This document shows, in pieces, positions 13,455 to 21,270 of a stretch of DNA of 21,477 bases (position 1 is the first letter of the stretch; each line of letters opens with the position of its first letter). The DNA comes from a virus, in the IMG/VR virus record IMGVR_UViG_3300010885_027884, positions 1 to 21,477 of that record. One strand, given 5' to 3'. A program made the translations under genes and the position numbers. Below the pieces are notes generated by a model that saw only the letters and a list, made by a program, of their open reading frames with translations, made no database searches and was not told the DNA's origin.

Positions 13455-14087
13455 ATGGCCGTTGCATCACTAACTAGAATGACAGTGCCTCTGTCTAGCG
13501 ATCAAAGTAATCCTAATCAGGGCTTGTTGATGCCAAAACTCAAATATCGCTTTCGAGTGATATTTGAAAACTTTGGAGTCTCTACTCCAAGAACAGAACT
13601 TACAAAACAAGTGATGGACTTTACTCGTCCATCAGTTACATTTGACGAAATTCCTATTGAAATTTACAACAGTCGTATGTACCTTGCTGGTAAGCATACT
13701 TGGGATATGTTAACTGTTACCTTGCGTGATGATGCTTCTGGCGAAGTAGCACGCCTGGTTGGTGAACAATTACAAAAGCAGTTGGACTTTAATGAGATGG
13801 CATCTGCGGCAGCTGGTATTGACTACAAGTTCCTAACACGTTGCGAAATTCTTGACGGTGGTAATGGAGCCGCTCAACCAGTTGTGTTGGAAAACTGGGA
13901 AATTTATGGTTGCTACTTGAACCAAGTTAACTATCAAGATCTTAACTATGGCGAAAGTGCTCCAGTAACAATTCAAATGCAAATTCGTTTCGATAATGCT
14001 GTTCAGACACCTAACGGTACTGGCCTTGGCACTAGCGTTGCACGTTTGGCAGGTAGTGTTGTAACTGGTGTAGGCACAGCTGGCTAA
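13455..14087 (+). CDS. 19: Tail tube protein, gp19 family
   Basis: A 210-residue tube subunit (T4: 163). Stacked hexamers of this protein form the DNA channel inside the sheath. Family marks: MPKLKYRFRVIFENFG (strand after the flexible start), VMDFTRPSVTFDEIPIE, the MYLAGKHTWDMLTVTLRDD segment and the late strand VLENWEIYGCYLNQVNYQDL followed by PVTIQMQIRFDN. The last 20 residues are a Gly/Thr/Val-rich tail missing in T4. Start ATG 13455 with AGGAG 10 bases upstream. Order sheath-tube is as in T4 (18-19), but here a second tube-like gene follows instead of portal gp20. Confidence 0.93.
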   Translation: MAVASLTRMTVPLSSDQSNPNQGLLMPKLKYRFRVIFENFGVSTPRTELTKQVMDFTRPSVTFDEIPIEIYNSRMYLAGKHTWDMLTVTLRDDASGEVARLVGEQLQKQLDFNEMASAAAGIDYKFLTRCEILDGGNGAAQPVVLENWEIYGCYLNQVNYQDLNYGESAPVTIQMQIRFDNAVQTPNGTGLGTSVARLAGSVVTGVGTAG

Positions 14088-14096
14088 TTAAATTAG

Positions 14097-15257
14097 ATGG
14101 CATTCGGGCAGGATTTTCTAAAGGCATTCTTCGGGAATGACTATGTCAAGGACTACACACATGCAAGCAAGGTGTTTAGATCCAATGGCTACGAAAATTC
14201 TCCCCGATTAAAGTTTTTATTTCACGTTTATTTTAATCTTAATACAACTGCAATTCCCCCGTTGAGAAACATTTTCTCAACGCCCGACACATCAACAATT
14301 GGCTTACTAGTTAAAAACATTGAACTACCTAAGTTCAAGATGGACACTGAAGTATTAAATCAATACAATCGCAAACGTGTAGTACAAAAAAGAATCGACT
14401 ACGATCCAATCAACATCAAGTTCCATGATGATTCTGGCGATTTAATTCGTACAATGTGGTACAATTACTATTCGTACTACTATAAAGATCCCACACAACC
14501 ATATCGTGGACAAAAAAACACAAATGGCAGTATTGGCCAAAGTGCAACATTGCCTAACGGTTTTGACTACAATAATCGAGACATTTATTCTAACGATCGT
14601 TTTGTTAATGATTGGGGTTATGTAGGCGAAAGTTATTTTGATGGCACAAACAGCACAAGTGGAAAGCCACCGTTCTTCAAAGACATCAGCATCTATGGCA
14701 TGAATCAACACAAGTTTGTTGAATATGTATTAGTGAATCCAATGATTAGCCAATGGAATCATGACTCATATGACTACAGCCAAGACAATGGTGTAATGGA
14801 AAACAACGTAACAATAACTTACGAAACAGTAAAATATTACAGTGGTGCAATTGGCGGCGTTAGACCAGATACAAACATTCAAGGTTTTGCAAGTCCAACC
14901 TATTATGATCAACAACAAAGTCCATTAACACGCCCGGGTGGTACTAGAAGTATTATTGGCCAAGGCGGGTTGCTTGATGCTGGCCTTGGCATATATTCTG
15001 ACTTACAATCTGGCAGCGTGGCAGGTGTTATTGGTGCTGTGCAAAAAGCCGGCACAGCTTACAACACATTCAAAGGTGTAAATTTAAAGTCTGTAGCAAA
15101 AGAAGAAGCAGTAGGAGCAGTCCAAGGTGTGTTAAGAGGTACAAGCCAAGGAAATCCATCTAGCACAGCATTGCAATCAATCATTCCTCCAAGCTTTGCA
15201 CAAAACGTAGCAACAACATTACAAAAACCAATTTTTCCGACACCACCTAAGAGGTAA
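14097..15257 (+). CDS. Tube-like virion protein, gp54-like candidate
   Basis: A 386-residue protein built on the tube plan: SPRLKFLFHVYFNLN, GLLVKNIELPKFKMDTEVLN, YNRKRVVQKRIDYDPINIKF and MWYNYYSYYYKD (about 35-145) match the first strands and the long loop of gp19-like proteins, and NNVTITYETVKYYSG (about 237-251) the last strand. The C-terminal 130 residues are Gly/Ala/Gln-rich and low in structure. In T4 the second gp19-fold protein of this size is gp54, which starts the tube on the baseplate (320 residues), so that role is the best guess; a variant tube or terminator protein is possible. It begins 9 bases after gp19 with no Shine-Dalgarno, suggesting coupling. I recall the NQYNRKRVVQKRI segment from other marine T4-like phages. 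Confidence 0.68.
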   Translation: MAFGQDFLKAFFGNDYVKDYTHASKVFRSNGYENSPRLKFLFHVYFNLNTTAIPPLRNIFSTPDTSTIGLLVKNIELPKFKMDTEVLNQYNRKRVVQKRIDYDPINIKFHDDSGDLIRTMWYNYYSYYYKDPTQPYRGQKNTNGSIGQSATLPNGFDYNNRDIYSNDRFVNDWGYVGESYFDGTNSTSGKPPFFKDISIYGMNQHKFVEYVLVNPMISQWNHDSYDYSQDNGVMENNVTITYETVKYYSGAIGGVRPDTNIQGFASPTYYDQQQSPLTRPGGTRSIIGQGGLLDAGLGIYSDLQSGSVAGVIGAVQKAGTAYNTFKGVNLKSVAKEEAVGAVQGVLRGTSQGNPSSTALQSIIPPSFAQNVATTLQKPIFPTPPKR

Positions 15258-16067: not shown

Positions 16068-16571
16068 ATGACAAGAAAACTCGAAGAACTTTTCAACATC
16101 GAATCTCCCAGTCCCGATGGCATACTTGATAGCCCAGACAGCGAACCTGGAAATGATATCGAGAAGAATTTGCCAGTACTCCCGGAAACTTTGGTGGCCC
16201 TTGACAAGATAGAGTCAGCATTGCCTGCGGTCCGGGGTCTTGAAGCCAGTGACGCTGAAATGGATGATTTGGCAACCAAGGCAACTGAAAGCTTTGACAA
16301 TCTCATGGACCTTGGCATGCAAGTTGACAGTAGATATGCCAGTGAAATTTTTGCTGTGGCCGGCGCTATGCTAGGACATGCTATCACTGCCAAGACAGCC
16401 AAGATGAATAAGAAACTCAAAATGATTCAGTTGCAATTACAAAAAGCAAAACTGGATCAAACCAATGAAACAGATCCTACTCCAACTGCTCAAGGTCGTG
16501 TATTAGATCGTAATGAATTACTAAAGCACTTGGTACAGCGGAGTACTGAAAACCCCAACAGCGGTAAATAA
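16068..16571 (+). CDS. 16: Terminase small subunit, gp16 family
   Basis: A 167-residue protein, the same length class as T4 gp16 (164). Small terminase rings bind DNA and regulate the large-subunit motor that fills the head. Plan: an acidic, Pro-rich N-terminal third; a long helical hairpin TKATESFDNLMDLGMQVDSR...EIFAVAGAMLGHAI (about 75-110); a second helix KMNKKLKMIQLQLQKAKL (about 115-132); and the C-terminal VLDRNELLKHL that in T4-like phages touches gp17. The same core (LMDLGMNV, EVAGSML, KKLKMI, DRNSLL) is known to me from cyanophage gp16. Start ATG 16068 rather than GTG 16044, which only adds eight residues out of the gp4 end. The large terminase gp17 is not in the window. Confidence 0.82.
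   Translation: MTRKLEELFNIESPSPDGILDSPDSEPGNDIEKNLPVLPETLVALDKIESALPAVRGLEASDAEMDDLATKATESFDNLMDLGMQVDSRYASEIFAVAGAMLGHAITAKTAKMNKKLKMIQLQLQKAKLDQTNETDPTPTAQGRVLDRNELLKHLVQRSTENPNSGK
16563..16570 (+). promoter_or_regulatory. Late promoter motif GGTAAATA for internal-protein cluster
   Basis: AGCGGTAAATA repeats the 11-mer seen before gp16. It overlaps the gp16 stop codon and stands 18 bases before ATG 16589, with AGGA in between. It would drive the run of leader-bearing genes to the right. Confidence 0.6.
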
Positions 16572-16588
16572 CATATAGGATTAGTCAC

Positions 16589-17188
16589 ATGAAAACATTT
16601 GCACAATATCTCACAGAAAGTGAAAAAACCTTTGATTATCGCATTAAAATATGCGGTGATGTGCCCTCAGACTTTGTTAACTCTCTGAAAGAAAAACTTA
16701 AAAAGTTTGATCCAGTAAAGATCTCTGAACCAAAGAAAACTCCAATTCAGTCTAAGCCAATTGACTTTCCGTCTTTCACAAACGAACCTGTAACTATCAT
16801 CGATGGCACATTTCGTTATCCAGCCACTCCTCCACAAATTCAACAAATGGTTCGTTTGTTAGGTATGGATGAGAATCGTGTGTGCATTAACGAGTTGCAG
16901 TGGAGTGAAGGCATGGACAAAGAGTTGTTGGGTATTGCCGACCAAAAGGATTTGTTAGTTAGTGACTATCCAGCTGACAATGCTGAACAGAAAGCACTCT
17001 CAAAAGATTATGCCGCTCCTGCCGCTGACAAAGAAGTAGTTAAAAACTCGGCTGCCGATGCCAAGTTCACTATTGCTGGTGGCAAGACACCCCCAGCAGA
17101 AACCACAAACAATTTACCGCAGGGCGTTAAGAGTCCAATGACAACGGTCAAACGTCCGCCTAAGCCAGCAACCGGCCTCCAGAAATAA
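16589..17188 (+). CDS. Putative internal virion protein with capsid-targeting-like leader
   Basis: A 199-residue protein beginning MKTFAQYLTE followed by S. This closely mirrors the capsid-targeting leader of T4 internal protein III (MKTYQEFIAE, then A), which is cut by prohead protease gp21 at [L/I]-x-E. The body has two alpha-beta stretches: FDYRIKICGDVPSDFVNSL (about 14-32) and a second, VTIIDGTFRYPATPPQIQQM (about 67-86), reminiscent of a duplicated ferredoxin-like fold. After about 130 it is Ala/Lys/Pro-rich and probably disordered. I recall DYRIKIAGDV...KKTPIQ...RYPATP proteins in other marine T4-like phages, called structural. Location inside the head is inferred from the leader. AGGA precedes the ATG. 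Confidence 0.72.
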   Translation: MKTFAQYLTESEKTFDYRIKICGDVPSDFVNSLKEKLKKFDPVKISEPKKTPIQSKPIDFPSFTNEPVTIIDGTFRYPATPPQIQQMVRLLGMDENRVCINELQWSEGMDKELLGIADQKDLLVSDYPADNAEQKALSKDYAAPAADKEVVKNSAADAKFTIAGGKTPPAETTNNLPQGVKSPMTTVKRPPKPATGLQK

Positions 17189-17198
17189 GGAAACAACA

Positions 17199-19397
17199 AT
17201 GACATTTTTTTACGACTTAAACAAAAAGCTTAGTGATTTGGCCGCTAAACAAACACTCACCGAAGCCGCTAGCCATCAAGCTAAAACTACAATGAAGCAT
17301 GTTAATGCTAGTGATGCTTCTCCTAAAGTAAAAGCCGCAATTGGCAAGGCAGCCAAAGACATCAAGCCAGGCATCCAAGGTTACAGAGACAGAGCGGCTG
17401 CATTGACTGCTGCCGGAGTCAAAGAAGATGACATGGGCGAAGGCAATGAATTTTCAGGTCAACTAGCCCGGGCCAAAGCTTCTGGTGCTAAATCATTTAA
17501 TGTTGATGGCAAAGAGTATCCAGTCAAAGAAGGCTCCACTGGTGATTACTCGGCCAAAAAAGCCCGGGCTGGTAAAGACATTGGAAAGCCCGGCAAAGCA
17601 TTTGCTAAGATTGCTAAATCAGCAGGCGAAAAATATGGTAGCAAAGCACGTGGTGAAAAAGTTGCCGGCGCTGTGTTGGCAAAGTTACGTGCCAAAGAAA
17701 GCATTGAAGAAACACAAAACCCCAATGTTGGTCAGGTGTTAAAAAACTTTTCGCGTGATGTTAAAGACTTTCAATCCAGTGGCGAGTTGAGTGATAACTT
17801 GTACAGTGCATTGTTTGACGTGTGGTCATCTGAAATGCCATATGGTACTGCAAAAGCACGCACTGGTGATCCATATCAGTGGATCTCTCAGAAACTGAAT
17901 CAAGAATTAGGCATGAGTGAAGGTGTTGACAAACAAGCATTTGCCGCGCTGGCACCTCCGCGAGACAAGATTACATTTGCTGACAAAATTGCTGGGGCCA
18001 AAAAAGAAGTTGACGAAATGCTTGGAGATGTTGCTGCCGAAGCAATGAAGGCAGCATTAGGCAAAGGTAAAAAGATTGTTGCTGACGAAAGCAGAGATGA
18101 TGACGATGACGTCTATACCTATCAAGATCCTGCAAAGAAGAAAACATATAAAACTGCATCCGGTGGTACAGTAACACACCATGGCAATGTTACACGCCAT
18201 CAAGCGGCGCCCGGGCGTTACGGTGGCTATGATCCAGAATCTCATCCAGACAAGGATGACGATAAGCCCGGAACACCTGACGGTGAAAAGCGTGGCAAAG
18301 GGCGTCCAAAAGGAACAGGTAAGAGTCTTGGCGCCAAAGGGCCAAGCGGTAAGTCTAAATTAATGACTCGAGAAGGCGAAGTAAGTACAGGTAATTTGCA
18401 AAAAATGCATCAGTTAGTTACTGGCTTAAAATTGTATATTCAAGACGAAGACGGCAAGGCAGCTCTTAAAGAGCTAACTGCGTTAATCAAGCATTATGTG
18501 AACCAAGGTGGCGAACAAGAACTAGACGAAGAGCAACTTGATGAGCTATCAAAGGATACATTAAAGAGTTATATTGATAAAGCTGCTACTCGTTTAGTTA
18601 GCGGCGACAAGTATAAGGGCATGGATAGATATAATAGAGTTGATGGTATTAAAAAAGCAACTTCTAAGCTTGTTAAACAAGAAGAAACAGAACAAACTGA
18701 TGAAGTCATGTCAAGAAAACAAAAAGATGCCGCAGTTCGTAATTTTATGTCGCATGATCCAGAAGCTGGTGAAAAAATTCTTGCTATGGGCAAGAAAGAT
18801 GCAGAAGACTTTGCATCAACCAAGCACAAAGGCCTACCAGAAAAGAAAGCCAAGAAAAAAGAAGATGTAGAAGAAACTACAACTTCGGGCAGTGTAGCTG
18901 TTGCACCTGCTGGCGGCAAAACAAAAGCAAATGGCATTTTTGGTAAGAGTGTTTATGAAAATAAATTAGCCGAAAGCTTCAACAACAAGTTAAACGCTGT
19001 GCTGTCTGAAGGCATGAGTATTAACATGAGCGTTGGTGAAGATGGAACCAAATCCTTGACAGTCAACGCCACAAACGAAGATGCTGAACAACTAGCACAA
19101 TTGCTTAAAATGGCCGGACTAGGTGGTGAAGGTGGTGCACAAGCTTGCTCTACATGCGGTGAATCTGCATGTGGTTGCGAACAAATGTCCGAAGGTGAAT
19201 TAGCCAACAGCCCTGAGCCAGGATACAGTGATACTGACACCATGGTCAACACATTAAGCGGCGGATTAAATGGTCGTAAAGATACTGGACAAACAGTAGG
19301 AGCTCCGTTTAACCGTCAGTCTGCTCGCCAAGGCCCAGGCATTGCCGAAAACAAAGAAGCAGAACTTTGGAAAATTTACTCACGATATTCAAAATGA
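17199..19397 (+). CDS. Large low-complexity internal virion protein with prohead-protease-like sites
   Basis: A 732-residue, Lys/Ala/Glu/Asp-rich protein. It starts MTFFYDLNKKLSDLAAKQTL and has LTE (20-22) before Ala23, a good match to the T4-type [L/I]-x-E protease site. More such sites: LAE (590-592) before Ser, LSE (602-604) before Gly, IAE (715-717) before Asn. Recognisable blocks: DYSAKKARAGKDIGKPGK (116-133), LDELSKDTLKSYIDKAA (447-463), KRGKGRPKGTGK (364-375, AT-hook-like GRP core), and C650-x2-C653-x4-C658-x-C660. These blocks occur in different combinations in marine T4-like phage proteins; none has a proven role. I read it as a mosaic scaffold or internal head protein bound to packaged DNA (inference). 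AAGGA precedes ATG 17199; its stop overlaps the next start (ATGA). Confidence 0.72.
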   Translation: MTFFYDLNKKLSDLAAKQTLTEAASHQAKTTMKHVNASDASPKVKAAIGKAAKDIKPGIQGYRDRAAALTAAGVKEDDMGEGNEFSGQLARAKASGAKSFNVDGKEYPVKEGSTGDYSAKKARAGKDIGKPGKAFAKIAKSAGEKYGSKARGEKVAGAVLAKLRAKESIEETQNPNVGQVLKNFSRDVKDFQSSGELSDNLYSALFDVWSSEMPYGTAKARTGDPYQWISQKLNQELGMSEGVDKQAFAALAPPRDKITFADKIAGAKKEVDEMLGDVAAEAMKAALGKGKKIVADESRDDDDDVYTYQDPAKKKTYKTASGGTVTHHGNVTRHQAAPGRYGGYDPESHPDKDDDKPGTPDGEKRGKGRPKGTGKSLGAKGPSGKSKLMTREGEVSTGNLQKMHQLVTGLKLYIQDEDGKAALKELTALIKHYVNQGGEQELDEEQLDELSKDTLKSYIDKAATRLVSGDKYKGMDRYNRVDGIKKATSKLVKQEETEQTDEVMSRKQKDAAVRNFMSHDPEAGEKILAMGKKDAEDFASTKHKGLPEKKAKKKEDVEETTTSGSVAVAPAGGKTKANGIFGKSVYENKLAESFNNKLNAVLSEGMSINMSVGEDGTKSLTVNATNEDAEQLAQLLKMAGLGGEGGAQACSTCGESACGCEQMSEGELANSPEPGYSDTDTMVNTLSGGLNGRKDTGQTVGAPFNRQSARQGPGIAENKEAELWKIYSRYSK

Positions 19398-20212
19398 GAA
19401 CATTTAAAGACTACTTGACAGACGCTGAACAGCAGAATCCCTGTGTAGGTGATTCTGTTGGCATTGAAATAGGGTTTGAGGACATTATCGAAACTTACGT
19501 AGTTGATGTGTTTGAAGATGCTGTGGTAATTGAAAGCGACAGCACAACTTTACAACTACTTGAGAGTGCAGGATGTAAATTTGAAACAATAAGACGCTAC
19601 GGTCCTGCAGGCAACAACAATGCCATGGGCTGGAGTGTAGCCGAAGATCAAGATGCGACTGTGCTAGCCCAAAAAGAAATAGCAACAGACATCACAAATC
19701 CTATGCCCGGGGTACATGAATCAGAGCACGAATCTGGCGAGTACGACTACGAAGGCGACATGGCCAAGGATGACTTGCATACTATAATCCGTGCCGCACG
19801 AAAACTAACTGGCATGTTGGATGACAATGAAAACATGCCAGAGTGGGTACAGTCAAAAATCAACAAGGCAGCTGACTATGTTGACACTGCGGCTGACTAC
19901 ATAGAGTCAAACAAAGAACAAGACGAAATTGACTTAGACGAAGCTGAATATCAAGGTCGTAAAGTTCCTTTAGGCAAGCCAATGCGTGGTGATGTAAAGA
20001 AATTCAAAGTTTATGTCAAAGATCCCAGTACTGGTAATATTAAAAAAGTAAGCTTTGGTCATGGTGGTTCCAGTGCAAAACGTGCTGGCCAAAAAACTAT
20101 GAAAATTAAAAAGTCAGATCCGGCACGTCGACGTAGTTTTAGAGCTCGGCACAATTGCGATAACCCAGGACCAAGAACAAAAGCACGATACTGGTCATGC
20201 CGTGCCTGGTAA
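19394..20212 (+). CDS. Composite internal virion protein with leader and basic Cys C-terminus
   Basis: A 272-residue protein; ATG 19394 overlaps the upstream stop. Three parts are visible. (1) Leader MRTFKDYLTD before Ala, like the capsid-targeting peptides but with Asp for Glu, then a beta-rich domain (about 18-95). (2) An acidic link and a helical hairpin DDLHTIIRAARKLTGMLDD ... PEWVQSKINKAADYVDTAADYI (126-170), a module frequent in marine T4-like phages. (3) After LDE (181-183) before Ala, a basic end with KKFKVYVKDPSTGNIKKVSF (202-221) and RARHNCDNPGP...ARYWSCRAW (250-272), a second widespread module with two conserved cysteines. A cut at LDE would free an 89-residue basic peptide. Role in head or DNA packaging is inferred. 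Confidence 0.7.
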   Translation: MRTFKDYLTDAEQQNPCVGDSVGIEIGFEDIIETYVVDVFEDAVVIESDSTTLQLLESAGCKFETIRRYGPAGNNNAMGWSVAEDQDATVLAQKEIATDITNPMPGVHESEHESGEYDYEGDMAKDDLHTIIRAARKLTGMLDDNENMPEWVQSKINKAADYVDTAADYIESNKEQDEIDLDEAEYQGRKVPLGKPMRGDVKKFKVYVKDPSTGNIKKVSFGHGGSSAKRAGQKTMKIKKSDPARRRSFRARHNCDNPGPRTKARYWSCRAW

Positions 20213-20227
20213 AAGGAAAACAACAAC

Positions 20228-20509
20228 ATGAGTCAAGCAAACGTTTATACATCGGCTAGTAGCCAAGCCTGGTACACTGACAAGGCAAGAATATCCACAG
20301 GCACAAACACTGTAACTTACAATGTAAATTTGTTGTACGGGCCTGCAACAGGAAATTTGTATTCAAATCCAATACAAATTCCAGCAAACAATCGCGTCAC
20401 AGTATGGGTAGGAGTTGGCAACCAACTAACAGTCACAGGTGGAAATGTTACTATACAAGAAGTAGGAACAGCAAGTTCGGGACAAGTTGGCGTTTGGCAG
20501 CCGGAGTAA
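20228..20509 (+). CDS. Small beta-rich protein, possible virion decoration
   Basis: A 93-residue protein, rich in Thr, Val, Asn and Gly, with alternating strands (NTVTYNVNLLYG, NRVTVWVGVGNQLTVTGG) and only two Glu and two Lys/Arg pairs; no signal or membrane segment. Unlike its neighbours it has no targeting leader. Its make-up suits an all-beta capsid decoration or fibre-associated protein, but this is only inference; I do not recognise the family. AAGGA stands before ATG 20228. The next start (20513) follows its stop by 3 bases. Confidence 0.72.
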   Translation: MSQANVYTSASSQAWYTDKARISTGTNTVTYNVNLLYGPATGNLYSNPIQIPANNRVTVWVGVGNQLTVTGGNVTIQEVGTASSGQVGVWQPE

Positions 20510-20512
20510 TTG

Positions 20513-20884
20513 ATGCGAGCTAATGAGTTTGTAACCGAGGACAAAGTTGGCAAGATTGGCAAGCGTCGACAGGTGGCCACACGTGGATTAAACAAATTCC
20601 GTGATAACCAATTTGCTGACAGGGTGTATGAACTCAATCGTATCATGATGGCAGTAGCTTCTACTGACGGTACTACTGTGCCTGATATGGACAGTGAGTC
20701 ATGGAGTGGGCGCAACAACGTGGCTGCTCCTTATACTGAAGTTGAGCAACGCATGCTTGAAAAAGCTTTCAAGGCCATAGGGTCAAAACATTGGGATCTA
20801 AATCACGGTGACATGGACAGTGAAGAAGTTAATTCAACTAATAAACAAAGTCCCGTGATGAGTTTCAAAGGCTATCCCCGATGA
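20513..20884 (+). CDS. Small virion-cluster protein with MRANEFVTE leader
   Basis: A 123-residue protein starting MRANEFVTED, a leader of the same pattern as in its neighbours, followed by KIGKRRQVATRGLNKF (basic, about 14-29), a helix, MDSESWSGRN, YTEVEQRMLEKAFKAIGSKH (about 75-94) and the end SPVMSFKGYPR. I recall this family (MRA-x-EF leader, KRRQ-x-ATRGL, DLNHGDM) as very common in marine T4-like phages, where it has no function assigned. The leader suggests packaging into the prohead. ATG 20513 has GGAG upstream; a TTG at 20510 would only add one residue. Its stop overlaps the next start (ATGA), and it shares its last residues with that protein. Confidence 0.78.
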   Translation: MRANEFVTEDKVGKIGKRRQVATRGLNKFRDNQFADRVYELNRIMMAVASTDGTTVPDMDSESWSGRNNVAAPYTEVEQRMLEKAFKAIGSKHWDLNHGDMDSEEVNSTNKQSPVMSFKGYPR

Positions 20885-21270
20885 GAGCACGTGAATTCGT
20901 CACAGAACAAGCCGCCCAATTGCCGGCCGAGCAAGCCGATCCCATGCGTTACACTTACGTAGTTCCTGGTCTCAGTGCCGCTGACCCATACCGCAATTAT
21001 AGATTTGGTGTTGCTCTAGCTCGAGCAAGAAGCGAAGCTGTAAAAGATGATGTAAACCCCGACATTCCTGCATGGCATGATGAAACTGCGTTTGGCGAGC
21101 ATGGCATTGTTGCTGGCATGACGCCAGGTATTGATAAACTTATTGATGCCGCATTGACAATGACAAAAACACCAGGTGGTAAAAAAATGGTGTCAAGTGG
21201 CCCCAGTGAAGAACCCAAATCAGTAGATACAAAAAGTCCTGTAAAGGCATTCAAAGGATACCCAAGGTAA
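20881..21270 (+). CDS. Small virion-cluster protein with MRAREFVTE leader
   Basis: A 129-residue protein. It opens with MRAREFVTEQ and ends SPVKAFKGYPR, so both ends match the preceding protein while the middle differs. Middle: a Pro/Ala-rich part, YRNYRFGVALARARSEA (about 38-54, helical), IPAWHDETAFGEHGIVAGM and DKLIDAALTMTKTPGG. The RFG-x-ALA helix with a following acidic loop is a pattern I recall from other marine phage proteins without function. The start is coupled to the previous gene by ATGA. A shared leader plus shared C-terminus suggests common targeting and a common binding partner (inference). Confidence 0.75.
   Translation: MRAREFVTEQAAQLPAEQADPMRYTYVVPGLSAADPYRNYRFGVALARARSEAVKDDVNPDIPAWHDETAFGEHGIVAGMTPGIDKLIDAALTMTKTPGGKKMVSSGPSEEPKSVDTKSPVKAFKGYPR

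Follow-up and report, generated by a model that had tools for sequence, protein, structure and literature searches.

In bacteriophage T4, the head protease gp21 cleaves after L/I-X-E, the first ten residues of internal protein IPIII alone sufficed for its targeting, the internal proteins together with Alt enter the host, and the core proteins are processed into several pieces, most of which leave the head (PMC9026906). In the T4 record, both ipII and ipIII start with MKTYQEFIAE. For uncultured T4-like phages, few of the proteins packaged in the head have been identified. Here we analysed a 21,477-nt stretch of viral DNA, the whole of which we call the window (IMG/VR record IMGVR_UViG_3300010885_027884), with a cassette of six consecutive genes, P1 to P6, as the subject. 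The window is a 21.5 kb piece of the genome of a contractile-tailed phage, and its source is an uncultured giant freshwater phage of the T4-like jumbo type. The results argued strongly that the cassette encodes T4-type head-internal cargo, whose leaders and linkers would be cut by the phage's gp21-type protease.

Compared with T4 IPI, IPII and IPIII, the cassette has the same leader of about ten residues ending in hydrophobic-x-Glu, which is conserved while the bodies that follow are unrelated or diverged, small paralogues in tandem, and a gp21-type protease, here found in relatives. It differs in lying between the terminase genes and not beside e/denV, in adding a second leader flavour (MRAxEF[IV]xE), in having two proteins with several internal sites, and in its bodies, which the initial annotation had called unrelated and for which Pfam, PHROG and NCBIfam returned nothing matching internal proteins. 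T4 gp22, gp67 and gp68 resemble P2 in the many [LIV]xE sites per chain, whereas P2 and P3 are built from modules that recur; among these, module E is a separate protein in other phages. The head proteins of phiKZ and SPN3US, processed by gp175 and gp245, are likewise numerous, belong to large phages and carry N-terminal propeptides cut after Glu, but those proteases are diverged, whereas relatives of the window encode a T4-type Peptidase_S77 (S77), gp23 and portal. Polyvalent proteins (Iyer et al. 2017, PMC5512222) likewise combine several domains in one phage protein and are presumed to undergo packaging and processing; their processing was proposed mainly through built-in zincin-like peptidases, in contrast to the gp21 proposed here, and the window proteins lack recognised enzyme domains. 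The best reading is that the cassette proteins are new members of the capsid-targeting sequence (CTS) kind, the novelty being their arrangement as modular precursors in P2 and P3.

We infer targeting, cutting, location in the head and ejection of the cassette proteins as follows. Like T4 CTSs, the leaders of P1, P3, P5 and P6, and also the longer one of P2, would bring each protein into the prohead core, and the gp21-type S77 protease would remove them by cutting behind the Glu or Asp in [LIV]-x-E/D. The protease would also cut at further sites of this kind between short modules of P2 and P3, setting free a number of pieces within the head that are small and mostly basic. These pieces would lie with the packaged DNA, like the T4 internal proteins, and some may enter the host along with it. 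Such delivery is plausible from the T4 precedent, with the chances for and against it close to equal.

Leaders of the cassette proteins and their conservation

The cassette genes and their leaders are as follows.

16589..17188, plus strand: P1, 199 aa, with a ferredoxin-like/S6-like core predicted behind the leader
16589..16618, plus strand: P1 leader MKTFAQYLTE, predicted cut after E10, predicted helix at 4-11
17199..19397, plus strand: P2, 732 aa, putative multi-module precursor
17199..17264, plus strand: P2 leader MTFFYDLNKKLSDLAAKQTLTE, longer class, ending in QTLTE
19394..20212, plus strand: P3, 272 aa, with leader, body, module B and module E
19394..19423, plus strand: P3 leader MRTFKDYLTD, predicted cut after D10
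20228..20509, plus strand: P4, 93 aa, without leader, the negative control within the cassette
20513..20884, plus strand: P5, 123 aa, leader MRANEFVTE at 20513-20539, C-terminus SPVMSFKGYPR
20881..21270, plus strand: P6, 129 aa, leader MRAREFVTE at 20881-20907, C-terminus SPVKAFKGYPR, probable paralogue of P5

The initial annotation had assigned a short leader with a cut site to five of the six proteins. The open reading frames and leaders were confirmed, and P2 turned out to belong to another class with a longer leader, so that four of the six proteins encoded at 16589-21270 (P1, P3, P5 and P6) have a 9-10-residue leader with [LIVF]-x-E/D at its end. P4, midway along the cassette, has no leader of CTS type. 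The P2 leader varies among orthologues (MTFFYDLNKKL.., MDMYDIL.., MNNMYDIL..), and [LIVMF]-x-E is reached within about 27 residues in 26 of 27 distinct forms. The P1 leader had also been called nearly superimposable on that of T4 IPIII; the comparison was correct, but with four of ten residues identical and the others mostly conservative, the wording was somewhat generous.

An alignment of homologous leaders, as the initial annotation had proposed, showed that they are conserved, with fixed cut-site residues and a free middle residue. After excluding rows with a start called inside the protein or belonging to P2, the cut site was kept in every distinct orthologue of P1 (28/28, L-x-E), P3 (19/19, [ILF]-x-E), P5 (17/17) and P6 (13/13). 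The hydrophobic residue and Glu were constant, and the residue between them could be Thr, Ala, Val, Ile, Arg or Ser; in P3, the window has D where its orthologues have E. Five P5 orthologues carry a 5-residue insertion after MRAxEF, and the cut site shifts along with it (MRAREFVSAKITE|TADAK compared with MRAREFITE|RDGTI).

P5 and P6 share MRAxEF starts and FxGYPR ends, and their sequences make them probable paralogues. The shared leaders could in principle be ascribed to recent gene duplication or to recombination at gene starts, as a side effect without function in the protein, and the tandem position of P5 and P6 and their common ends agree with this. We regard it as scarcely credible. Of the 9 leader codons in the window, P5 and P6 share just one, and 7 of the 8 differences are silent, indicating that selection acts on the leader amino acids; moreover, unrelated bodies at distant genome positions share leaders, and the cut site is kept where its position shifts. 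Recent duplication as the source of the leaders was rejected on this silent-site divergence.

The C-terminal F.GYPR of P5 and P6 (window 20864-20881 and 21250-21267) is invariant in relatives, usually inside SP[VI]..F.GYPR. The AlphaFold model obtained for P5/P6 had a mean predicted local distance difference test (pLDDT) score of 58.9 and was unusable.

The leader was also examined genome-wide, again as proposed initially. The gene order small terminase, P1, P2, P4, P5, P6, large terminase is kept in the relative G001, whose large terminase was identified by PHROG (E 7e-106). A bare [LIV]-x-[ED] within the first ~20 residues occurred in 163 of 396 G001 genes, with 138-154 expected, and this loose counting was dropped as a leader signal since it gave no enrichment over chance. 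The strict form M[KR]..[EDQKN][FY][LIV]x[ED] was found in 7 of the 396 genes against 0.01 expected, and at none of 1692 internal Met positions. In the genomes of six relatives, a slightly wider form occurred 22 times against about 0.1 expected. The results showed that the leader is concentrated in the cassette and a few other genes.

Head protease and virion detection in relatives

A search for gp21, which the initial annotation had also suggested, found Pfam Peptidase_S77 above the cut-off in 8 of 9 large relatives. This gp21 of relatives is identified as a head maturation protease by PHROG 207 (E 2e-59). In G001, its neighbours are portal and an acidic protein to one side and, to the other, gp23 and a gp22-position scaffold, which is assigned to gp22 solely from where it lies and whose PHROG has no stated function.

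Relatives of P1 were found at 62 viral loci, among them records of 342, 345 and 353 kb, and P1 matched the virion structural protein PHROG 14802 (E 2e-4). In the cultured jumbo phage PA5oct, a P1 homologue at the same place is annotated as a structural protein detected by electrospray ionisation tandem mass spectrometry (ESI-MS/MS). The AlphaFold model of P1 had a mean pLDDT of 70.8, and its top solved-structure matches were ribosomal protein S6-like ferredoxin folds (Foldseek E about 5e-4, low TM-scores); solved-structure searches with P1 and module E gave nothing significant. An S6-like ferredoxin fold is predicted for P1 with modest confidence, and it was not used to assign function. The C-terminal end of P1 carries a conserved SPM..-KRPP.PATGF stretch.

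T4 gp22 is the classic gp21 substrate. When the proteins of six genomes were ranked by their excess of [LIV]xE[GSANT] over shuffles, the gp22-position scaffold was among the eight proteins of highest motif density in all six. The list also held the P2 and P3 homologues, the leader-bearing G001 protein at 64466, and gp21 itself. P2 of the window has 8 such motifs against 2.8 in shuffles.

Modules of P2 and P3

Profiles of short segments showed that the P2 and P3 homologues are made of recurring modules in varying order. The features in the window are as follows.

18288..18320, plus strand: AT-hook-like KRGKGRPKGTG in P2
18708..18848, plus strand: module F (DUF3008-like) in P2, weak match to Pfam PF11450
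18957..19121, plus strand: module L near the P2 C-terminus
19751..19906, plus strand: module B in P3, with cyanophage matches in S-WAM2 and S-SM2
19934..19942, plus strand: internal predicted cut site LDE ahead of module E
19943..20209, plus strand: module E, basic, at the P3 C-terminus (PHROG 7595, E 7.8e-13)

From their sequences, P2 and P3 are better described as putative multi-module precursors than as single internal proteins, a description that is new here. Module B lies within P3 in the window and within P2 in G001. Among distinct contexts in relatives, [LIVMF]-x-E stands directly before module E in 15/15, module F in 14/14, module I in 12/12 and module L in 19/20, against a background of 24-31%; modules A (3/3) and D (2/2) are preceded by it as well, in few contexts. 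The AT-hook-like stretch, which fits a protein located with DNA, is also present as KRGxGRPKG in P2 of 5 of 6 relatives. Phage-database protein searches with P2 and P6 gave no match, a Pfam search recognised no enzyme domain in P2 or P3, and a literature search on the DUF names of the modules returned only papers on viruses of eukaryotes, with no phage function described.

The module boundaries came from hand-picked seeds, so the independent test with module E carries most weight. Module E was found at at least 593 viral loci in a scan of public viral contigs, and its contexts were taken from the best 80 of these, dereplicated to 40. The ranking of the matches, by similarity starting at the Glu, is biased towards the Glu and not towards the hydrophobic residue; the position two before the Glu was [LIVMF] in 36 of the 40 contexts, against a background of 0.245 (p about 3e-18). 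At one locus (L211), the whole protein consists of MKTYREFVTE joined directly to the remainder of module E. The gene adjoining this minimal one (L211:4277-5458) has the leader MKSFDQFLTE and then a P-loop-like GGPGSG stretch.

In the four S77-encoding cultured phages examined (C48C1, HTVC008M, immuto and Melnitz), module E lies behind LTE, LEE, LDE or MME. Seven of nine complete phage records without an S77 match begin a protein at module E with its own Met, counting Kolga and Aegir, which are the same sequence; such phages may still encode another head protease. In the remaining two, CRP-2 has a short extension before module E and CRP-6 has a fusion. This contrast, embedded behind a cut site in the S77 phages examined and mostly free-standing without S77, offers a direct test of whether the protease unpacks modular cargo. 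In Roseobacter phage CRP-6 (L251:538-1227), module E is at the N-terminus of an XkdF-type head protease (Peptidase_S78_2, E 7e-18), and the fusion, judged from this domain arrangement, is an independent link of module E to head assembly.

A somewhat better than even case can be made for a wider proposal, in which many aquatic T4-like phages would share small basic modules (phrog_7595/module E, DUF6321, DUF3008 and others) in leader-headed precursors joined at gp21 sites, and phages without gp21 would encode the same module mostly stand-alone. If so, a single targeting tag would load many cargo pieces, released by the head protease. With a leader and cut-site grammar readable from sequence, one could also catalogue what thousands of aquatic phages pack into their heads and which proteins are candidates for injection; the exact N-termini predicted by this grammar can be checked by proteomics.

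Alternatively, P1, P2 and P3 could take the part of T4 gp67, gp68 or gp22 as core or scaffold proteins of the prohead, being cut up and mostly leaving the head, with leaders and sites serving assembly and no delivery to the host. P2 does share its high site density with the gp22-position scaffold, and the T4 core proteins become several mostly exiting fragments, as noted above (PMC9026906). Nevertheless, the P1 homologue is retained in the PA5oct virion, module E is conserved and basic and stands alone in other phages, which is odd for a throw-away scaffold, and P5 and P6, as small paralogues with a single site each, resemble T4 internal proteins. We therefore consider a core or scaffold role unlikely.

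Several observations weigh against cargo cut by gp21. The window's 21 kb fragment has no gp21 of its own. The PA5oct virion homologue of P1 (L071:12001-12603) begins MKSFRDYYDAS, without an [LIV]xE site though PA5oct encodes S77; it retains the start MKSF.DY and is the single clear exception among the leaders. At position P1' of the cut site, P5 and P6 often have Gln, Arg or Asp, where Ala or Ser would be more typical. There is no preceding [LIVMF]-x-E for modules B, C and M, and hardly ever one for H, so the rule of a cut site before each module is not universal. Ordinary proteins too show mildly raised motif density (z 1.0-5.5 for all control proteins per genome). Taken with the conserved leaders, S77 in relatives and mass spectrometry of PA5oct, the initial proposal of a cassette of head-internal proteins is largely supported, except that the P2 leader is not of the IPIII type.

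Other leader-bearing genes and the surroundings of the cassette

Leaders also occur on enzyme-like proteins far from the head genes, for example the acetyltransferase-like protein at G001 73336, as would be expected if they were sorting tags for a non-head target such as a membrane, the phage nucleus or a degradation machine. T4 Alt is, however, a precedent for head-packaged enzymes, both leader and cut motif match those of T4, gp21 is present in most of the large relatives, and module E was found behind a T4-like leader. We judge a non-head target very improbable, and head-internal cargo remains the preferred reading.

The G001 protein at 73336 (L076:13336-13914) resembles GNAT acetyltransferases (Pfam E 9e-4). 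It belongs to a second leader-bearing gene group at 67-74 kb (L076:7037-13914), distant from the head genes and adjoining a large protein, parts of which are nucleotidyltransferase-like and HExxH-like; by their sequences, the leader proteins of this group are candidate packaged enzymes. Another G001 protein (64466-66094; L076:4466-6094) has the leader MKAREFITE and 542 aa with five spaced GV[AT]E[GS] repeats, possible protease sites. GVAEG-type repeats were rejected as a general cut-site signature, the five copies being confined to one G001 protein.

Upstream of the cassette, the window contains the following features.

10020: tail sheath-like protein
15623: gp4-like head closure protein (PHROG 218, E 1e-40)
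16068..16571, plus strand: probable small terminase (gp16-like), the cassette boundary (PHROG 445 small subunit, E 0.0016, weak; PHROG 16202, E 1.4e-10)

The small-terminase label, given already in the initial annotation, leans on the weak PHROG 445 match and on synteny with PA5oct and cyanophages, the gene having a matching place in PA5oct, DSL-LC02 and S-SM2. Tail-tube-like products come from two adjoining genes, one recognised by eye (13455-14087) and the other, far longer, by PHROG (14097-15257).

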